A program made the translations under genes and the position numbers. Shown here in pieces: positions 18,736 to 34,429 of a DNA stretch of 64,000 nucleotides; the first letter of the stretch is position 1; the number at the start of each line of letters is the position of its first letter. Below the pieces are notes generated by a model. That model worked only from the letters and a program-made list of their open reading frames with translations, was not told the origin of the DNA and made no database searches. Source of the DNA: Agrobacterium larrymoorei (GTDB taxonomy: Bacteria > Pseudomonadota > Alphaproteobacteria > Rhizobiales > Rhizobiaceae); NCBI RefSeq assembly GCF_013322225.1, contig NZ_JAAMFB010000027.1, positions 124,001 through 188,000 of the forward strand, given 5' to 3'.

Positions 18736-19305
18736 TTAGCGAACCAAAACCGCTGCAGTCACGGCTGACGTCTGCGCGTCTGGGCCGAACTCGTTTTCGT
18801 TTTCAATACCCAGCAGTTCCTGGAGCCTCAAGCGAGCGCGGCTGACGCGGCTCTTGATAGTGCCAACAGGGCAACCGCAGATTTCGGCGGCTTCCTCGTA
18901 CGCGAAACCTGATGCACCGATCAGCAGGATGGCCTCTCGCTGATCGTCCGGCAGTTTGTTTAGCGCCTGTCTGAAATCTTGGAGATCAACAGACCCATGC
19001 TGCTCAGGTGGCACCGACAATCGAGACGTATACGCGCCGTCAGTGTCTTGTACTTCCCGCCCTGATTTTCTGATCTGGCTATAGAATTCATTACGCAGGA
19101 TGGTCACAAGCCATGCCCGCATGTTGGTTCCGGGCTGATAGCTCTCCTGCTTGGCCCACGCCTTCATGATGGTGTCTTGAACAAGGTCGTCTGCCCTGTC
19201 GCGGGATCTGATCAATGAGATTGCGAATGCGCGGAGGTTGGGGAGTGCTGCAAGCATTTCGCGCTTGAAATTATTGCTGTTCGCGTCAATGTCTTTGGTC
19301 ATCAT
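18736..19305 (-). CDS. ecfG: General stress response ECF sigma factor EcfG
   Basis: A 189-residue ECF sigma factor. Region 2 is at about 25-95, with RADDLVQDTIMKAW and NMRAWLVTILRNEFYSQIRK, the signature seen in EcfG/RpoE2 proteins. Region 4 is at about 110-165, with LPDDQREAILLIGASGF and YEEAAEICGCPVGTIKSRV. It directs RNA polymerase to promoters of the form GGAAC-N16/17-CGTT. Its start overlaps the nepR stop (ATGATGA), with a second in-frame ATG at 19302. Known mechanism: NepR holds EcfG until phosphorylated PhyR binds NepR. All three genes are here, with phyR facing nepR. Confidence 0.95.
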   Translation of the reverse strand: MMTKDIDANSNNFKREMLAALPNLRAFAISLIRSRDRADDLVQDTIMKAWAKQESYQPGTNMRAWLVTILRNEFYSQIRKSGREVQDTDGAYTSRLSVPPEQHGSVDLQDFRQALNKLPDDQREAILLIGASGFAYEEAAEICGCPVGTIKSRVSRARLRLQELLGIENENEFGPDAQTSAVTAAVLVR

Positions 19306-19502
19306 CCCCCCGAAGCTTTCGATTTGCTTTCGGCCTCGTCCAGCTTTTCCAGGAGATCGAGAAATTTGTCCGGGATGCCCTCGTCCTGAACGGCGTCGTA
19401 AAGCTCTCTCAGCTTGCGAGAAATGACAGCGCGTCCGGAATCGGGAACAGTCGGACTCGTCCCATTATCAGATGGATCCTGATCTGATTGAAATATACTC
19501 AT
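19302..19502 (-). CDS. nepR: Anti-sigma factor NepR
   Basis: A 66-residue protein with the NepR core ISRKLRELYDAVQDEGIPD followed by KFLDLLEKLDEAE, the two helices that wrap EcfG or the sigma-like domain of PhyR. Flanking sequences are polar and probably disordered, as usual. It is translationally coupled to ecfG and divergent from phyR across a 137-bp gap. GGAAC lies in the minus-strand upstream region with an imperfect -10, so stress-dependent autoregulation is possible. Confidence 0.93.
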   Translation of the reverse strand: MSIFQSDQDPSDNGTSPTVPDSGRAVISRKLRELYDAVQDEGIPDKFLDLLEKLDEAESKSKASGG

Positions 19503-19567: not shown

Positions 19568-19592
19568 GGAACTTTTTTTAGACGCTTGCGTT
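19568..19592 (+). promoter_or_regulatory. EcfG-type promoter of phyR
   Basis: GGAAC (19568-19572), 16 bases, then CGTT (19589-19592): a perfect match to the general stress promoter consensus. It lies 48 bp before the phyR start, giving a leader of about 40 nt that contains the AGGGGAG ribosome binding site. Confidence 0.85.
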
Positions 19593-19639
19593 TATCTCGC
19601 GGGCTTGCCTTGCAGGCCGCATGAACAGGGGAGAATTCC

Positions 19640-20434
19640 ATGTCAGTTTCTACTCGCATCGCACCGCATCTGCCATACTTGCGCAGGTTCGCTCGTGCCG
19701 TTTGCGGTTCTCAATCCACAGGCGATGCGTATGTTGCAGCCAGCCTGGAAGCGCTGATCGCAGATGTCAGCATTTTTCCGCAGGCAAGTAGCGATCGCGT
19801 TGCACTCTACCAATTGTTTGTTTCCATCTTTAGTTCCGTCACCATCAATATTAAGAGCGATGAAAACCTGACAGGTTGGGAAAAGCGCGCTTCTGCCAAT
19901 CTCTCCGCCGTGCCCGCAGTGCCGAGGCAGGCGTTTCTTTTGACCACCGTTGAAGAATTTTCCCCTGCGGAAGCTGCTGAAGTTCTGAAGGTTCCTGAAA
20001 CTGAGATCGGCAGGCTTATCGATGAAGCCGCTTCCGAGATTGCACGCCAGGTCGCGACCGATATCATGATCATTGAAGATGAGCCGTTGATCGCGATGGA
20101 CATCGAGCAGATGGTGACCGACCTTGGTCACAATGTCACGGGTATCGCGCGTACGCACAAGGAAGCACTTGAGCTGTTCCATCGCACCAGCCCCAAGATG
20201 ATCCTTGCGGACATTCAGCTCGCGGACGGAAGCTCGGGTCTCGATGCGATGAAGGAAATTCTCCAGATGACCACTCTGCCGGTTATCTTCATCACCGCGT
20301 TCCCGGAACGGCTTTTGACCGGCGAGCGGCCAGAGCCTACCTTCCTTGTCACGAAGCCGTTCAACCCGGATATGGTGAAGGCGCTGATAAGCCAGGCCCT
20401 CTTCTTCAACGAGAGTTCACGAGTCGCTGCTTAA
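19640..20434 (+). CDS. phyR: General stress response regulator PhyR (anti-anti-sigma factor)
   Basis: A 264-residue two-domain regulator. Residues 1 to about 135 form a sigma-like domain (HLPYLRRFARAVCGSQ, then VPRQAFLLTTVEEFSPAEAAEVL) that mimics EcfG and binds NepR. Residues 140-260 form a receiver domain with acidic Glu146/Asp147, phospho-acceptor Asp191 (MILADIQLADG), Thr219 and Lys239. On phosphorylation by HWE/HisKA2 kinases the sigma-like domain is freed to take NepR away from EcfG. AGGGGAG lies six bases before the ATG, and a perfect EcfG-type promoter precedes the gene. Two candidate kinase genes lie downstream. Confidence 0.96.
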   Translation: MSVSTRIAPHLPYLRRFARAVCGSQSTGDAYVAASLEALIADVSIFPQASSDRVALYQLFVSIFSSVTINIKSDENLTGWEKRASANLSAVPAVPRQAFLLTTVEEFSPAEAAEVLKVPETEIGRLIDEAASEIARQVATDIMIIEDEPLIAMDIEQMVTDLGHNVTGIARTHKEALELFHRTSPKMILADIQLADGSSGLDAMKEILQMTTLPVIFITAFPERLLTGERPEPTFLVTKPFNPDMVKALISQALFFNESSRVAA

Positions 20435-20545: not shown

Positions 20546-21538
20546 TTGCATCGGCTGGCGTGGCACAATGCGGACCGTAATGAGAGTGAGCTGCACGATT
20601 CGCTCGTGCTTGCTCTGCTCGACTCCGGCGAAACCGTGATGCTGCAAGATCGCGATAGGGATTACATCTTCATCGCGAACCTTCCTGACGTGTGGTGCTT
20701 GCCCCGCAGTGCAGGCGAAGACCCGACGGACGACAATATCTTCGGAAAAGATCTGGCCTCGCGGCTGTTCGAGCTGAAGAAGGATCTGACATCGGCTGGC
20801 AGTCGCGGCATGCTGGAGGTGGTGGCCGGTAAGGATCGCGTCTTCCAGTTTCATGTCTATTCGACCGTCAACATGTCCGGGCAGCGGGTCTTGAAGACCA
20901 CGATCCGGGAGGTAACAGTCGATCGCAGGCGTGAGCAATTGTTGCGGTCTCTACTGCGCGAGGTAAGCCACCGCTCCAAAAACCTCCTGGCAATCATACA
21001 GAGCCTTTCGGCGCAGACAGCCCGCTTCAGTCTTACGAAAGACGACTTCCTTCGAAAGTTCAGAGGGAGGCTGCACGCGCTTGCTCAGTCTCAGGATTTG
21101 ATTACGGATTCAGATTGGCGTGGAGCCGAGATTTTCGACTTGCTTAAACAGCAGTCCGATTTATATTTGCCTGAGTACCCTCATATGATCCAGATGAAGG
21201 GTGAGAATCTCCTGCTCAATCCGAATGGCGCGCTTTACGTAGGTCTGGCGTTCCATGAACTTGTCGTGAATACTGTCAGTCACAGCGGTAATCTATCCAA
21301 CCATCTGCCCATAACGCTTGAATGTAGCTCGGATGATGAGTTCTTCGACGTCCATTGGAAAGAGCCGTTGGCGTTGAACCGTGCGGATTTACCAAACGAA
21401 GATACAAAAAGAAGTAATTTTGGAAGCGTCGTCCTCGAGAAGGTTGTTCCGGCAGCACTCGCGGGAACCGCAGAGTATCAGGTTACGGGAGACGAAGTGA
21501 CGTATTCACTCCGCTTTCCATCCCCATTGTCGGCTTGA
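20546..21538 (+). CDS. Cytoplasmic HWE family sensor histidine kinase
   Basis: A 330-residue soluble kinase without membrane segments. The N-terminal 120 or so residues form a PAS-like sensory domain. The phospho-acceptor box is EVSHRSKNLLAI (His near 142), the N box is FHELVVN (about 237) and WKE near 271 is the motif that defines the HWE group. The start is a TTG at 20546, eight bases after GGAG; no ATG fits. It follows phyR by 111 bp on the same strand, so it is a strong candidate kinase or phosphatase for PhyR. No partner receiver other than PhyR is encoded nearby. Confidence 0.88.
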   Translation: MHRLAWHNADRNESELHDSLVLALLDSGETVMLQDRDRDYIFIANLPDVWCLPRSAGEDPTDDNIFGKDLASRLFELKKDLTSAGSRGMLEVVAGKDRVFQFHVYSTVNMSGQRVLKTTIREVTVDRRREQLLRSLLREVSHRSKNLLAIIQSLSAQTARFSLTKDDFLRKFRGRLHALAQSQDLITDSDWRGAEIFDLLKQQSDLYLPEYPHMIQMKGENLLLNPNGALYVGLAFHELVVNTVSHSGNLSNHLPITLECSSDDEFFDVHWKEPLALNRADLPNEDTKRSNFGSVVLEKVVPAALAGTAEYQVTGDEVTYSLRFPSPLSA

Positions 21539-21623: not shown

Positions 21624-21728
21624 AGAAAAGCACGGCTCTGGGGGAGCCGTGCTATTCATGGCAGACCTTCAGGGGCAAAGTCTGCATCGCCAAGCCGCAG
21701 GCGGGGACGGGGGAATGGCTTGGCTTGC
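21624..21728 (-). ncRNA. Candidate stress-induced small RNA with three C-rich loops (GsrN-like)
   Basis: Read on the minus strand, a perfect EcfG promoter is followed by three consecutive perfect stems. Stem 1 pairs 21717-21724 with 21689-21696 around a 20-base loop rich in C runs. Stem 2 pairs 21680-21685 with 21661-21666 around a 13-base loop containing CCCC. Stem 3 pairs 21644-21652 with 21630-21638 around CCCCA and runs into TTTTCT, an intrinsic terminator. The predicted RNA is about 105 nt; the start is estimated from the promoter. It lies between the convergent stress kinase genes. The architecture matches Caulobacter GsrN, an EcfG-dependent RNA whose C-rich loop pairs with G-rich ribosome binding sites; that relation is inferred from architecture, not from alignment. 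Confidence 0.75.
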
Positions 21729-21734
21729 TTGAAA

Positions 21735-21759
21735 AACGCATTGGTCGGAGCTTTGTTCC
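21735..21759 (-). promoter_or_regulatory. EcfG-type promoter of the small RNA
   Basis: On the minus strand GGAAC (21759-21755), 16 bases, then CGTT (21738-21735): a perfect match. It begins 15 bp after the stop of the kinase gene at 21774-23477 and points toward the small RNA, so the RNA need not depend on read-through from the kinase. Confidence 0.85.
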
Positions 21760-21773
21760 TGTAGAAATGATTT

Positions 21774-23477
21774 TTATTGAAAAGATTGCTCGGACGGCGG
21801 TTTAATGAAATGGCGCGCGGGTGCCGACATTTGCCAAATGAAGCCAGATACCGCGTAGCTTATTGTAATATCGGCAGAAAATGCGCTCTCAGCATGCCGC
21901 TTTATAATCGTATTTCCAAAACCCTTACGGGCCGGCGGCTCTGCGGCAGGTCCATCTGCTTCTTTCCATTCGATGTTCAACAGATCGTGATCATCGACAA
22001 TCACGCGATCCCACCGGACAAACACCTTGCCTTGGCGCTCGGAAAGTGCGCCGTATTTAATGGAATTCGTCGCCAATTCATGAAGGATGAGGCCGAAGTT
22101 TTGCGCTGCCTCGGGAGACAGTATAAAGTCATCGCCTTGAAGCTGGATTTGTTGTGCTACGCTTCCAAAAACGTCCAGATGAGACTTTACAAGTCTGCTC
22201 ATCGGCAAGCCTTCCCATTGCACTTCTGACAGTGCGGAGATCGACATGGCGAGACCCCGCAGCCGATGATCGACTGCTTTTTGAAAATCCGTGATCGATG
22301 TGTTTTCCTTAGCCAGCTGCCGCATCATTGCCTGAACAAGTGTCAGCATGTTTTTCGACCGGTGAACCATTTCATGCAAAATGAGATGCGTGCGGTCCTC
22401 CGCCTGGCTTCGATCGAATGACGCATTCGACAAGGCTACGGATACCTGGTTCATCTCCTTGATCTTCGTGTTGATGGGAGAGACGATATCCCCTTCTCCG
22501 ATACGCTCGGCGACGGCGGTGAGCTGGCGAACGGAGCCGCGCAACTGTCTTCCCACCACATAGGCACCGAGTATTGCGCATGACACAAGAACAAGGCTTC
22601 CGATCATCATCTGACGCCAGATGCTGGTGAGTGCGGATTCGCTTCTCGCAGTCTGCCCCCAAACCACGGTTTTCCAAGACCAACCGGGTAACTGCGCATA
22701 TCCGTGTATTTCATCATGCTCATCGGTGAAGCTGCCGCTAAAGGACGCCATCTGCTCTATGACGGCAGGCACAGCATAAAGCTGACCCGTCTTGGCGCTG
22801 TTGCTATCGCTTGAGATGATGATGTGGCCAGTGCTGTCCAGCACGGCGGCATGCCACCCTTCGGGTATTCCCTCTGCCGAAATCAATGACGATAAATCGC
22901 GGGCATTTTGCGTAATGATCAACACGTCGCCTGCGGCAGAGAGCTGTCGAGGTAGCGGCAGGGTAACGTTAAAGACCCATTCTTTGCTTGTGCTGCCATA
23001 AAATATGTTGGAGACGGTTACCCTGTTCGCCGCAATTGCAGCCTGGATATTTGCTTCCGCTGGTACCTTTTGAAGAGGCGAGCCGTAGGCAAGCCGACTG
23101 TTCAACCGCTGGGTTCCGTCCCGAGTTGCAATAATGACATATAGCCCACGTTCTCTCAGGCTGTCGCTAACGCGTTTGTGAAAGCTCTCTAGATCGCCGT
23201 TTTCAAGTTCTGGAAACTGTGACAACAAGCTCAGCGTCGTCGCCATTTCCTGAAGGCGGCGTTCAATGTTGCGGCTGATGACGCGTGCGTCATCCACCGC
23301 TTCACGCTGCAAGTCATCGCGTTCATTTGCTTCCAGCCGGAGCATGAGATAACCGGCGAAGACAATTAGCGGCAACGTGACAACCGCTGTCATTACAACA
23401 AGATAAGCCCCGATTGAGGCTGTTGGAAAGAAACCCGCCAGAGCTTTTTTAAACGAAGAAATCTTACTCTTCCGCAT
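21774..23477 (-). CDS. Membrane-bound HWE family sensor histidine kinase
   Basis: A 567-residue sensor kinase. A transmembrane helix at about 20-42 is followed by a periplasmic region of about 240 residues with a double-Cache-like pattern, a second helix at about 293-311 and a HAMP-like linker. The kinase core has HEMVHRSKNMLTLVQ (phospho-acceptor His372), LHELATNSIKYGALS (N box, about 466) and IEWKEADGP (W-x-E, about 503), placing it in the HWE family. It is convergent with the soluble kinase gene at 20546-21538 and shares the island with phyR. It probably senses an extracytoplasmic stress signal and feeds PhyR; the signal is unknown. Confidence 0.9.
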   Translation of the reverse strand: MRKSKISSFKKALAGFFPTASIGAYLVVMTAVVTLPLIVFAGYLMLRLEANERDDLQREAVDDARVISRNIERRLQEMATTLSLLSQFPELENGDLESFHKRVSDSLRERGLYVIIATRDGTQRLNSRLAYGSPLQKVPAEANIQAAIAANRVTVSNIFYGSTSKEWVFNVTLPLPRQLSAAGDVLIITQNARDLSSLISAEGIPEGWHAAVLDSTGHIIISSDSNSAKTGQLYAVPAVIEQMASFSGSFTDEHDEIHGYAQLPGWSWKTVVWGQTARSESALTSIWRQMMIGSLVLVSCAILGAYVVGRQLRGSVRQLTAVAERIGEGDIVSPINTKIKEMNQVSVALSNASFDRSQAEDRTHLILHEMVHRSKNMLTLVQAMMRQLAKENTSITDFQKAVDHRLRGLAMSISALSEVQWEGLPMSRLVKSHLDVFGSVAQQIQLQGDDFILSPEAAQNFGLILHELATNSIKYGALSERQGKVFVRWDRVIVDDHDLLNIEWKEADGPAAEPPARKGFGNTIIKRHAESAFSADITISYAVSGFIWQMSAPARHFIKPPSEQSFQ

Positions 23478-23632: not shown

Positions 23633-23658
23633 GGAACCAATTTCTCAGTAGCGTCGTT
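23633..23658 (+). promoter_or_regulatory. EcfG-type promoter of the PRC-barrel gene
   Basis: GGAAC (23633-23637), 17 bases, then CGTT (23655-23658), 78 bp before the chosen start codon. It matches the general stress consensus with the longer of the two permitted spacers. Confidence 0.8.
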
Positions 23659-23736
23659 TGCTAATCGAACAGGCTGAAGGGAGGAACGGATAAACCGGCT
23701 CCAGCCGTTTATACGACGATGAAAGGAAGGTACGAT

Positions 23737-24324
23737 ATGAAAAAGACACTCACCCTAATCGCTACTGCCGCCCTCATGGGTACGACAGCGTTCGCACCGT
23801 TGGCCATCGCTCAGGAGGCAACTCAGACAGCCCCTGCTAATCCAGGTGCGGCTGCACCGGCAACGCCAGACGCAACACCGGCTCAGCCGATGATACCTGC
23901 GACCCCCGGCACCTCTGCGGATGCAGGCGCTGCATCGGGCACTTATTTGACAGAGCAGTCCCCAACTCAGATTAGCGCCAACGATTATATCGGTAGCGCA
24001 GTCTACACCGGTGCATCCGGTGACGAGAACATCGGTAACGTCACAAACCTTATCCTTGAGGAAAACGGCGGCATCACCGCAGCTGTCGTCGGCGTCGGCG
24101 GCTTCCTTGGTATCGGTACCAAGGACGTGGCTGTCCCGATGGACAAGATCACCATGACGCGTGATACCGACAACGGTTCCATCCGTCTGACAACGACAGA
24201 GACAGCTGAGTCTCTTAAGGCTGCCCCGGAATTCAAGACGATGGAAGACAAGGCGAGCGAAAGTGCTTCGACACCAGCTCCGGCAACCCCGGACAACACT
24301 ACCACGTCTTCGACCAATCCCTGA
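23737..24324 (+). CDS. Exported PRC-barrel domain protein
   Basis: A 195-residue precursor with a Sec signal peptide (MKKTLTLIATAALMGTTAFA, cleavage near AIAQ). A low-complexity Ala/Pro/Thr linker follows (about 28-75), then a PRC-barrel (about 82-160) with YIGSAVYTGA, IGNVTNLILEENGGI and VGGFLGIGTKDVAVPM, and a Pro/Thr/Ser tail. ATG 23737 has AAGGAAGG six bases upstream; the in-frame ATG at 23719 is rejected for lack of a binding site. The upstream EcfG promoter predicts induction by general stress. Proteins of this kind are common stress-induced envelope proteins in rhizobia; the ligand is unknown. Confidence 0.85.
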   Translation: MKKTLTLIATAALMGTTAFAPLAIAQEATQTAPANPGAAAPATPDATPAQPMIPATPGTSADAGAASGTYLTEQSPTQISANDYIGSAVYTGASGDENIGNVTNLILEENGGITAAVVGVGGFLGIGTKDVAVPMDKITMTRDTDNGSIRLTTTETAESLKAAPEFKTMEDKASESASTPAPATPDNTTTSSTNP

Positions 24325-34018: not shown

Positions 34019-34360
34019 TTAACGGCGGGTGACGAGTGCGAGAAGGAAGCCGGTTGCAACCGCGATACCGAGAGACTGAAGGGGGTTTTTCTGAACCTGA
34101 TAGGTGAGGTTGTCGTTGATCGTCTGGATTTCGCTGCGAACATAGTCCAGCTTTTCTTCACCAGCGGAAATGGCGTCGTCAGCCACGCGCGCAGCCTGTG
34201 CCTTCACCTCATGCGAAACGCCCAGGCCTAGCGCCTTCACGCTGCCGGCAAGGTTCGCAAGGTCTTCACGCAGCTGCGAAAGTTGGGCTGCCACATCGGC
34301 TGCATCGCCGTTTTCTATGGATTGACGTACCTTGTCTTCTACGTTGCGAACGGTTGCCAT
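34019..34360 (-). CDS. DUF883 / YqjD-ElaB family membrane-anchored protein
   Basis: A 113-residue protein. Residues 1-90 form a charged amphipathic helix or coiled coil (VRQSIENGDAADVAAQLSQL, then KLDYVRSEIQTINDN). The C-terminus carries the family membrane anchor NPLQSLGIAVATGFLLALV-TRR. Enterobacterial YqjD and ElaB bind ribosomes at the inner membrane in stationary phase. Here a perfect EcfG promoter lies 45-69 bp upstream, which agrees with induction in stress or stationary phase. The ribosome role is taken from relatives. Confidence 0.85.
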   Translation of the reverse strand: MATVRNVEDKVRQSIENGDAADVAAQLSQLREDLANLAGSVKALGLGVSHEVKAQAARVADDAISAGEEKLDYVRSEIQTINDNLTYQVQKNPLQSLGIAVATGFLLALVTRR

Positions 34361-34404: not shown

Positions 34405-34429
34405 AACGCTGACACTCTGTTTTGGTTCC
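34405..34429 (-). promoter_or_regulatory. EcfG-type promoter of the YqjD/YqjE pair
   Basis: On the minus strand GGAAC (34429-34425), 16 bases, then CGTT (34408-34405): a perfect match, with an expected leader of about 40 nt. Confidence 0.8.

Follow-up and report, generated by a model that had tools for sequence, protein, structure and literature searches.

Between the two HWE histidine kinase genes of the ecfG–nepR–phyR island of Agrobacterium larrymoorei lies what we consider, with good confidence, to be a conserved stress-locus gene for a small RNA with a terminator of its own. EcfG is predicted to switch it on, and the RNA probably acts in trans, through pairing of two conserved C-rich loops with G-rich ribosome-binding sites. 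At the level of sequence, this reading is carried by a promoter motif, a predicted three-hairpin RNA with its terminator, conservation throughout the genus, stems with compensatory changes and a loop core that hardly varies; some of the other Rhizobiaceae show the same architecture at the same place.

The stress island and its small RNA gene

We analysed a stretch of 64 000 nucleotides (hereafter the window) of a 4.85 Mb genome in which the small RNA was found once by BLAST with a 181-base query. Among the best 80 of 514 PhyR matches, the nearest PhyR was that of A. cavarae (96% identical). The features of the island are, in window coordinates:

18736–19305, minus strand: ecfG, the predicted sigma factor for the small-RNA promoter (Pfam)
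19302–19502, minus strand: nepR, anti-sigma factor (Pfam)
19568–19592, plus strand: EcfG-type promoter 5′ of phyR (motif)
19627–19633, plus strand: AGGGGAG ribosome-binding site of phyR, candidate target (leader comparison; predicted pairing weak)
19640–20434, plus strand: phyR (Pfam)
20546–21538, plus strand: HWE histidine kinase 1, convergent with the small RNA (Pfam)
21624–21728, minus strand: small RNA, about 105 nt (5′ end deduced from the promoter, 3′ end from the terminator)
21629–21653, minus strand: hairpin 3 (SL3), intrinsic terminator, stem 21653–21644/21638–21629, 10 pairs (fold and terminator scan)
21661–21685, minus strand: hairpin 2 (SL2), stem 21685–21677/21669–21661, 9 pairs including one G-U (fold)
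21689–21724, minus strand: hairpin 1 (SL1), stem 21724–21717/21696–21689, 8 pairs (fold and covariation)
21735–21759, minus strand: EcfG-type promoter GGAAC-N16-CGTT of the small RNA (motif and conservation in genus loci)
21774–23477, minus strand: HWE histidine kinase 2, co-oriented with the small RNA and upstream of it (Pfam)

The order is therefore ecfG and nepR on the minus strand, phyR and HWE kinase 1 on the plus strand, and the small RNA and HWE kinase 2 again on the minus strand; the Pfam assignments agree with an earlier note on this DNA, which had placed the RNA between the two HWE-kinase genes of this island. Kinase 2 has a Cache-like domain that scores under the Pfam cut-off. The start of kinase 1 at 20546 appears to be TTG; the window and all 12 Agrobacterium-group loci compared share TTGCATCGGCT there.

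The EcfG promoter claimed for the small RNA is present on the minus strand, with GGAAC at 21759–21755, a spacer of 16 nt and CGTT at 21738–21735. One GGAAC-N16-CGTT site taken alone is weak evidence, because the promoter pattern occurs at 74 sites genome-wide against 80 for the reversed control, i.e. without enrichment; the 64-kb window contains three motifs (0.61 expected; 2 of 100 shuffles as high). The promoter is credible because GGAAC-N16-[CT][AG]TT stays 47–49 bases 5′ of the loop core in all 30 fetched genus loci while the spacer sequence drifts (six of the 36 BLAST-matching genomes are without a fetched locus). One half of the genus has CATT or TGTT as the second part of the motif. The third perfect EcfG motif of the window (34405–34429, minus strand) lies 5′ of a 113-codon frame (34019–34360, minus strand) that appears to belong to the stress regulon as well. 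The PRC-barrel gene after the island (23719–24324, plus strand) is preceded by an EcfG-like motif (23633–23658, plus strand) whose spacer has 17 bases.

Fold of the RNA and its conservation in Agrobacterium

The predicted fold has a minimum free energy of −48, compared with −28.4 ± 3.2 for 200 shuffles, none of which was as low (z −6.1). Hairpin 1 carries the conserved loop ATTCCCCCGTCCCCGCCTGC (21716–21697; written CCCCCGTCCCC as loop 1), the core of which, CCCCGTCCCCGCC, is invariant in 40 aligned RNAs, extra Cs apart; L042 and G013, which stand outside this alignment, differ from the core by a base. The loop of hairpin 2, GCCCCUG (21676–21670), is also C-rich (CCCC) and conserved. Hairpin 3 is directly followed by a TTTCTC tail, and its proposed identity as an intrinsic terminator was borne out by the fold, with which a terminator scan agrees. 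The three perfect stem-loops, each with a C-run in its loop, that the earlier note had described need qualification on two points: all three hairpins are present, but hairpin 2 contains a G-U and is not strictly perfect, and the three C-rich loops reduce to two because the terminator loop is not conserved, the C-run of the window being replaced in relatives by ACG, TCCTA, TTTCA and others. In half of the genus (L016–L030), a T-run follows hairpin 3 on both strands in most loci, so that hairpin 3 may there also end the phyR–kinase 1 mRNA.

The small RNA was detected in 37 of 37 genus genomes examined, in 36 of them by the 181-base BLAST search and in the diverged 37th (G013) by covariance model (E 4.9e-10); in this last copy, promoter and terminator flank a loop 1 with CCCCGTCCCCC and a C-rich loop 2. 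BLAST detected it in none of 24 genomes from other families of the order, and among plasmids there was no match. Six of 25 pairs were changed on both sides in 26 distinct RNAs of the genus, a number that none of 500 shuffles reached, and in hairpin 2 this applied to four of eight pairs. Pairs were counted on alignments A1 and A2 only; A1 omits L013 (an N) and L025, L026 and L029 (copies of other rows), and hairpin 2 was excluded from the A2 count, seven rows being shifted by one base. The MAFFT alignment, A3, misaligns hairpin 2 between groups, and both A2 and A3 omit L042, L059, L115 and L119. The named loci (L) and the genomes (G) overlap, and counts from the two sets are not independent.

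A 58-codon frame (21659–21483) has its ATG inside the RNA and might encode a small protein. Nevertheless, in one half of the genus other bases stand in place of this ATG, the frame crosses the terminator and the conservation sits in loops and paired stems; we give a coding role hardly any credence.

Distribution among the Rhizobiaceae

Within the best 80 of 514 PhyR loci, 43 showed the architecture of the small RNA at the same place, i.e. all 12 of the Agrobacterium group and 31 of the 68 others, mainly Neorhizobium, Pseudorhizobium, Xaviernesmea, Endobacterium and strains filed as Rhizobium. L042, whose loop is one C shorter, was counted as a carrier by eye. Outside Agrobacterium, hairpin 1 is made of other bases and still pairs around CCCCCGUCCCCCGCCC (six of 10 pairs changed on both sides), and hairpin 2 reads CUCUUC-AAUCCCCCUC-GAAGAG or close to it. 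With both partners altered in 14 of 22 pairs among 28 RNAs from other genera, the compensatory changes that had been named as a check on the stems are found beyond the genus as well as within it. A covariance model made from the genus only returned, at E < 0.05, seven non-Agrobacterium RNAs at this place (best 8.7e-5) and four more matches elsewhere in L118, L058 and L068. Judged by their nearly unchanging loop core and covarying stems, the RNAs of Agrobacterium and the Neorhizobium group are one family.

The loop motif CCCCGTCCCC(N)GCC, present in 189 of 394 family genomes, is uninformative on prevalence because the reversed control was generally commoner. Model R1 matched 10 of 297 family genomes at E ≤ 0.001, six of them in the genus; the other four (L037–L040) were dropped, the three inspected being bare terminators.

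The small RNA is independent of kinase 2, since locus L047 and the RNA-bearing loci outside the genus carry it without an orthologue-like match to this kinase. Its persistence there weighs against regarding the RNA as the 3′ end of a neighbouring mRNA, that is, as a terminator region common to kinase 2 and, on the other strand, to phyR–kinase 1. Such a region would fit the position of the RNA start, some 45 nt past the stop codon of the co-oriented kinase 2 gene, and the T-run on both strands after hairpin 3 in part of the genus, yet the RNA has its own promoter motif at a fixed distance, and the conservation of loops 1 and 2 would be superfluous in a terminator. An mRNA 3′ end is thus very unlikely in our view.

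Brucella endophytica (L114) has a further RNA at the same place. In the Ciceribacter–Allorhizobium group the island is rearranged: in its 18 loci (L063, L085, L106, L109 and 14 others) the best EcfG match lies ~3–4 kb beyond phyR on the other strand, and motif scans of these loci did not find this RNA type. L063 is filed as Arenimonas, a gammaproteobacterium, while its PhyR groups with Ciceribacter, and is probably mislabelled or a mixed bin.

Relationship to ReC64 and GsrN

RNAs of this kind are already known, namely ReC64, GsrN and the GsrN-like RNAs proposed for Rhizobiaceae. ReC64 of R. etli was detected by Northern and 5′ RACE (PMC2881028, PMC3892343), its expression was abolished in an ecfG1 mutant, its promoter was activated by EcfG in E. 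coli and it sits downstream of the phyR–histidine kinase pair in the ecfG island (PMC3892343); it was over-expressed under salt shock, and SigA and RpoH promoters were predicted for it (PMC4167512). The Agrobacterium RNA is likewise placed in the ecfG island 3′ of the phyR–kinase pair, has an EcfG promoter motif and is small (88 is given for ReC64; PMC3892343, PMC2881028). By position and promoter, it corresponds to ReC64. In contrast, the RNA carried at this position by the R. etli-type loci L112 and L108 has C-runs and an inner hairpin in hairpin 1, and both loci are absent from the matches of the Agrobacterium covariance model up to E = 10. The likeness to the R. etli-type RNAs is thus one of place and hairpin order, without similarity by covariance model, and that the model misses L108 and L112 counts against our reading of the RNA.

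The small RNA had no Rfam match at gathering score, only chance matches, and in this sense it is unannotated, as the earlier note had called it, although its R. etli counterpart in position, ReC64, is published (PMC2881028, PMC3892343). In those parts of the literature on GsrN, ReC64 and EcfG/RpoE2/PhyR small RNAs that were available to us, we found no description of it in Agrobacterium; a bare listing in the supplements of C58 deep sequencing (PMC3738593) or in an earlier survey is quite possible. The small RNAs of Sinorhizobium meliloti that depend on RpoE2 similarly have stress-sigma-factor promoters, but differ in that none, going by the description in the part of the report used, is placed in the phyR island (PMC3616915).

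Full-length GsrN depends on Hfq and is processed to a stable 5′ part. GsrN of Caulobacter crescentus pairs with the katG leader, its BLASTn relatives are reported only in Caulobacteraceae, and most of its homologues adjoin the stress island (PMC5869019). Like GsrN, with its stress-sigma-factor promoter and the exposed C-run of its 5′ loop (PMC5869019), the Agrobacterium RNA combines a promoter of the stress-sigma-factor type with a C-rich loop close to its 5′ end. The C-run repeated in the loops would also suit a sponge in which the C-rich loops bind a protein and not mRNA, but known RNAs of similar type pair with mRNA (PMC5869019), and we see only a slim chance of this. Unlike GsrN, the Agrobacterium RNA has two conserved C-rich hairpins. 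Its common descent with ReC64 and GsrN is only suggested, by position and architecture.

As to strain names, the sequenced 'Agrobacterium radiobacter' strain K84 is one that we take to belong to Rhizobium. Stress-locus RNAs of Rhizobiaceae were earlier proposed as GsrN-like (Tien et al. 2018, Fig. 9; PMC5869019), the 'Agrobacterium radiobacter' candidate having been found using R. etli sequence. These candidates share with ours the place in the stress locus, the EcfG site and the exposed C-rich 5′ loop (cytosine-rich in the text, G-rich in the figure legend), whereas the small hairpin that flanks the loop in the legend is lacking in the Agrobacterium type (PMC5869019).

Candidate targets

The best-shown target of GsrN, the katG leader (PMC5869019), is without counterpart in Agrobacterium. 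The katG leaders of 22 genus genomes had no conserved G-tract near the start, and a G-tract of four or more or GGGCGGG occurred in two of the 22, far upstream; a GsrN-like target in the katG leader is not supported. The katG match of genome G005 (L208) has one in-frame TGA. The full-loop complement GGCGGGGACGGGG was found in the own genome, with up to two mismatches, at 192 sites, against 267 for the reversed control. Thirty of the 192 were inspected; the only perfect one was the opposite strand of the RNA itself, and the other six inspected with at most one mismatch lay in or opposite called frames.

Of six island leaders, phyR is the only one with a G-run (AGGGGAG) conserved in 13 of 13 loci compared. 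The suggestion that mRNAs of the island are among the targets survives, weakly, for phyR, and not for the other five leaders, none of which has a G-run in all 13 loci. Among the best 80 of 514 PhyR loci, the phyR leader contains GGGG in 36 of the 43 that bear the RNA (GAGGGAG in the other seven) and in none of the 37 without this RNA type (L042 reassigned by eye); GGGG was also present in all 20 stretches compared from the genus, some of which are of the same species. Striking as it looks, the association reflects the one or two events on the tree in which RNA and G-run change together.

The predicted pairing of 12 Agrobacterium RNAs with phyR was equalled in 4–28% of other leaders (median 9%). 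This proportion had a median of 23%, i.e. was ordinary, for 31 RNAs outside Agrobacterium, and pairing was poor in Pseudorhizobium (57–77%). The leader comparison, which leaves out L042, supersedes an earlier ranking of loop pairing among own-locus genes, in which phyR was first in 10 of 36 loci and seventh of 27 in the window. Pairing of the whole unfolded molecule, which put phyR 17th of 55 leaders, was rejected as not meaningful.

AGGGGAG-N4-9-ATG occurs at 35 places in the genome (12 in the reversed control), an excess as expected of ribosome-binding sites. The AGGGGAG of phyR is shared in the own genome by rpsC (L222), gguB (L217), a pyruvate dehydrogenase E2 gene (L218) and a peptide-binding protein gene (L225), and among four other genomes, identical leader strings placed the site in all four for rpsC, in at least three for gguB and in at least two each for the other two.

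If pairing of loops 1 and 2 with the AGGGGAG of phyR reduced the translation of PhyR after EcfG activation, the RNA would be a brake of the general stress response, kept together with the G-rich site through Agrobacterium and the Neorhizobium group, lineages without this RNA having TTGGAGAA or GGGAG. The conserved G-run in this sole leader, its occurrence with the RNA and the pairing within Agrobacterium favour such a loop; the one or two joint changes on the tree, the ordinary to poor pairing outside the genus and the 35 places in the genome tell against it. RNA feedback on the PhyR switch would, moreover, be unlike GsrN in Caulobacter, which was found not to feed back on the stress response (PMC5869019). 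We regard a feedback role as unlikely and phyR as a weak candidate target, not a finding.

Proposed role and implications

We favour a trans-acting RNA of the stress response. EcfG would drive its gene, as the promoter motif and the published EcfG1-dependence of ReC64 suggest; the transcript would then act in trans, with loops 1 and 2 as its putative target-binding parts. Exposed and C-rich, these loops could bind G-rich sequence close to ribosome-binding sites by base pairing, in the manner of GsrN on the katG leader (PMC5869019). By analogy, the RNA is probably expressed under stress, and base pairing would be its means of tuning other genes. Against this reading speak the lack of enrichment of the promoter pattern, CATT or TGTT in half of the genus, and the SigA and RpoH promoters predicted for ReC64 (PMC4167512).

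New here is the recognition of one family spanning Agrobacterium and the Neorhizobium group, together with the covariation within it, the reduction of three C-rich loops to two that are conserved, the negative katG result and phyR as a candidate target. The plant-associated genus Agrobacterium gains a stress-locus small RNA, within an RNA family of Agrobacterium and the Neorhizobium group that is absent from Rfam, and what had been a published guess, that GsrN-like RNAs take part in the stress response of Rhizobiaceae, can now be examined at named loci, through loops open to experiment and with phyR as the target to try first.
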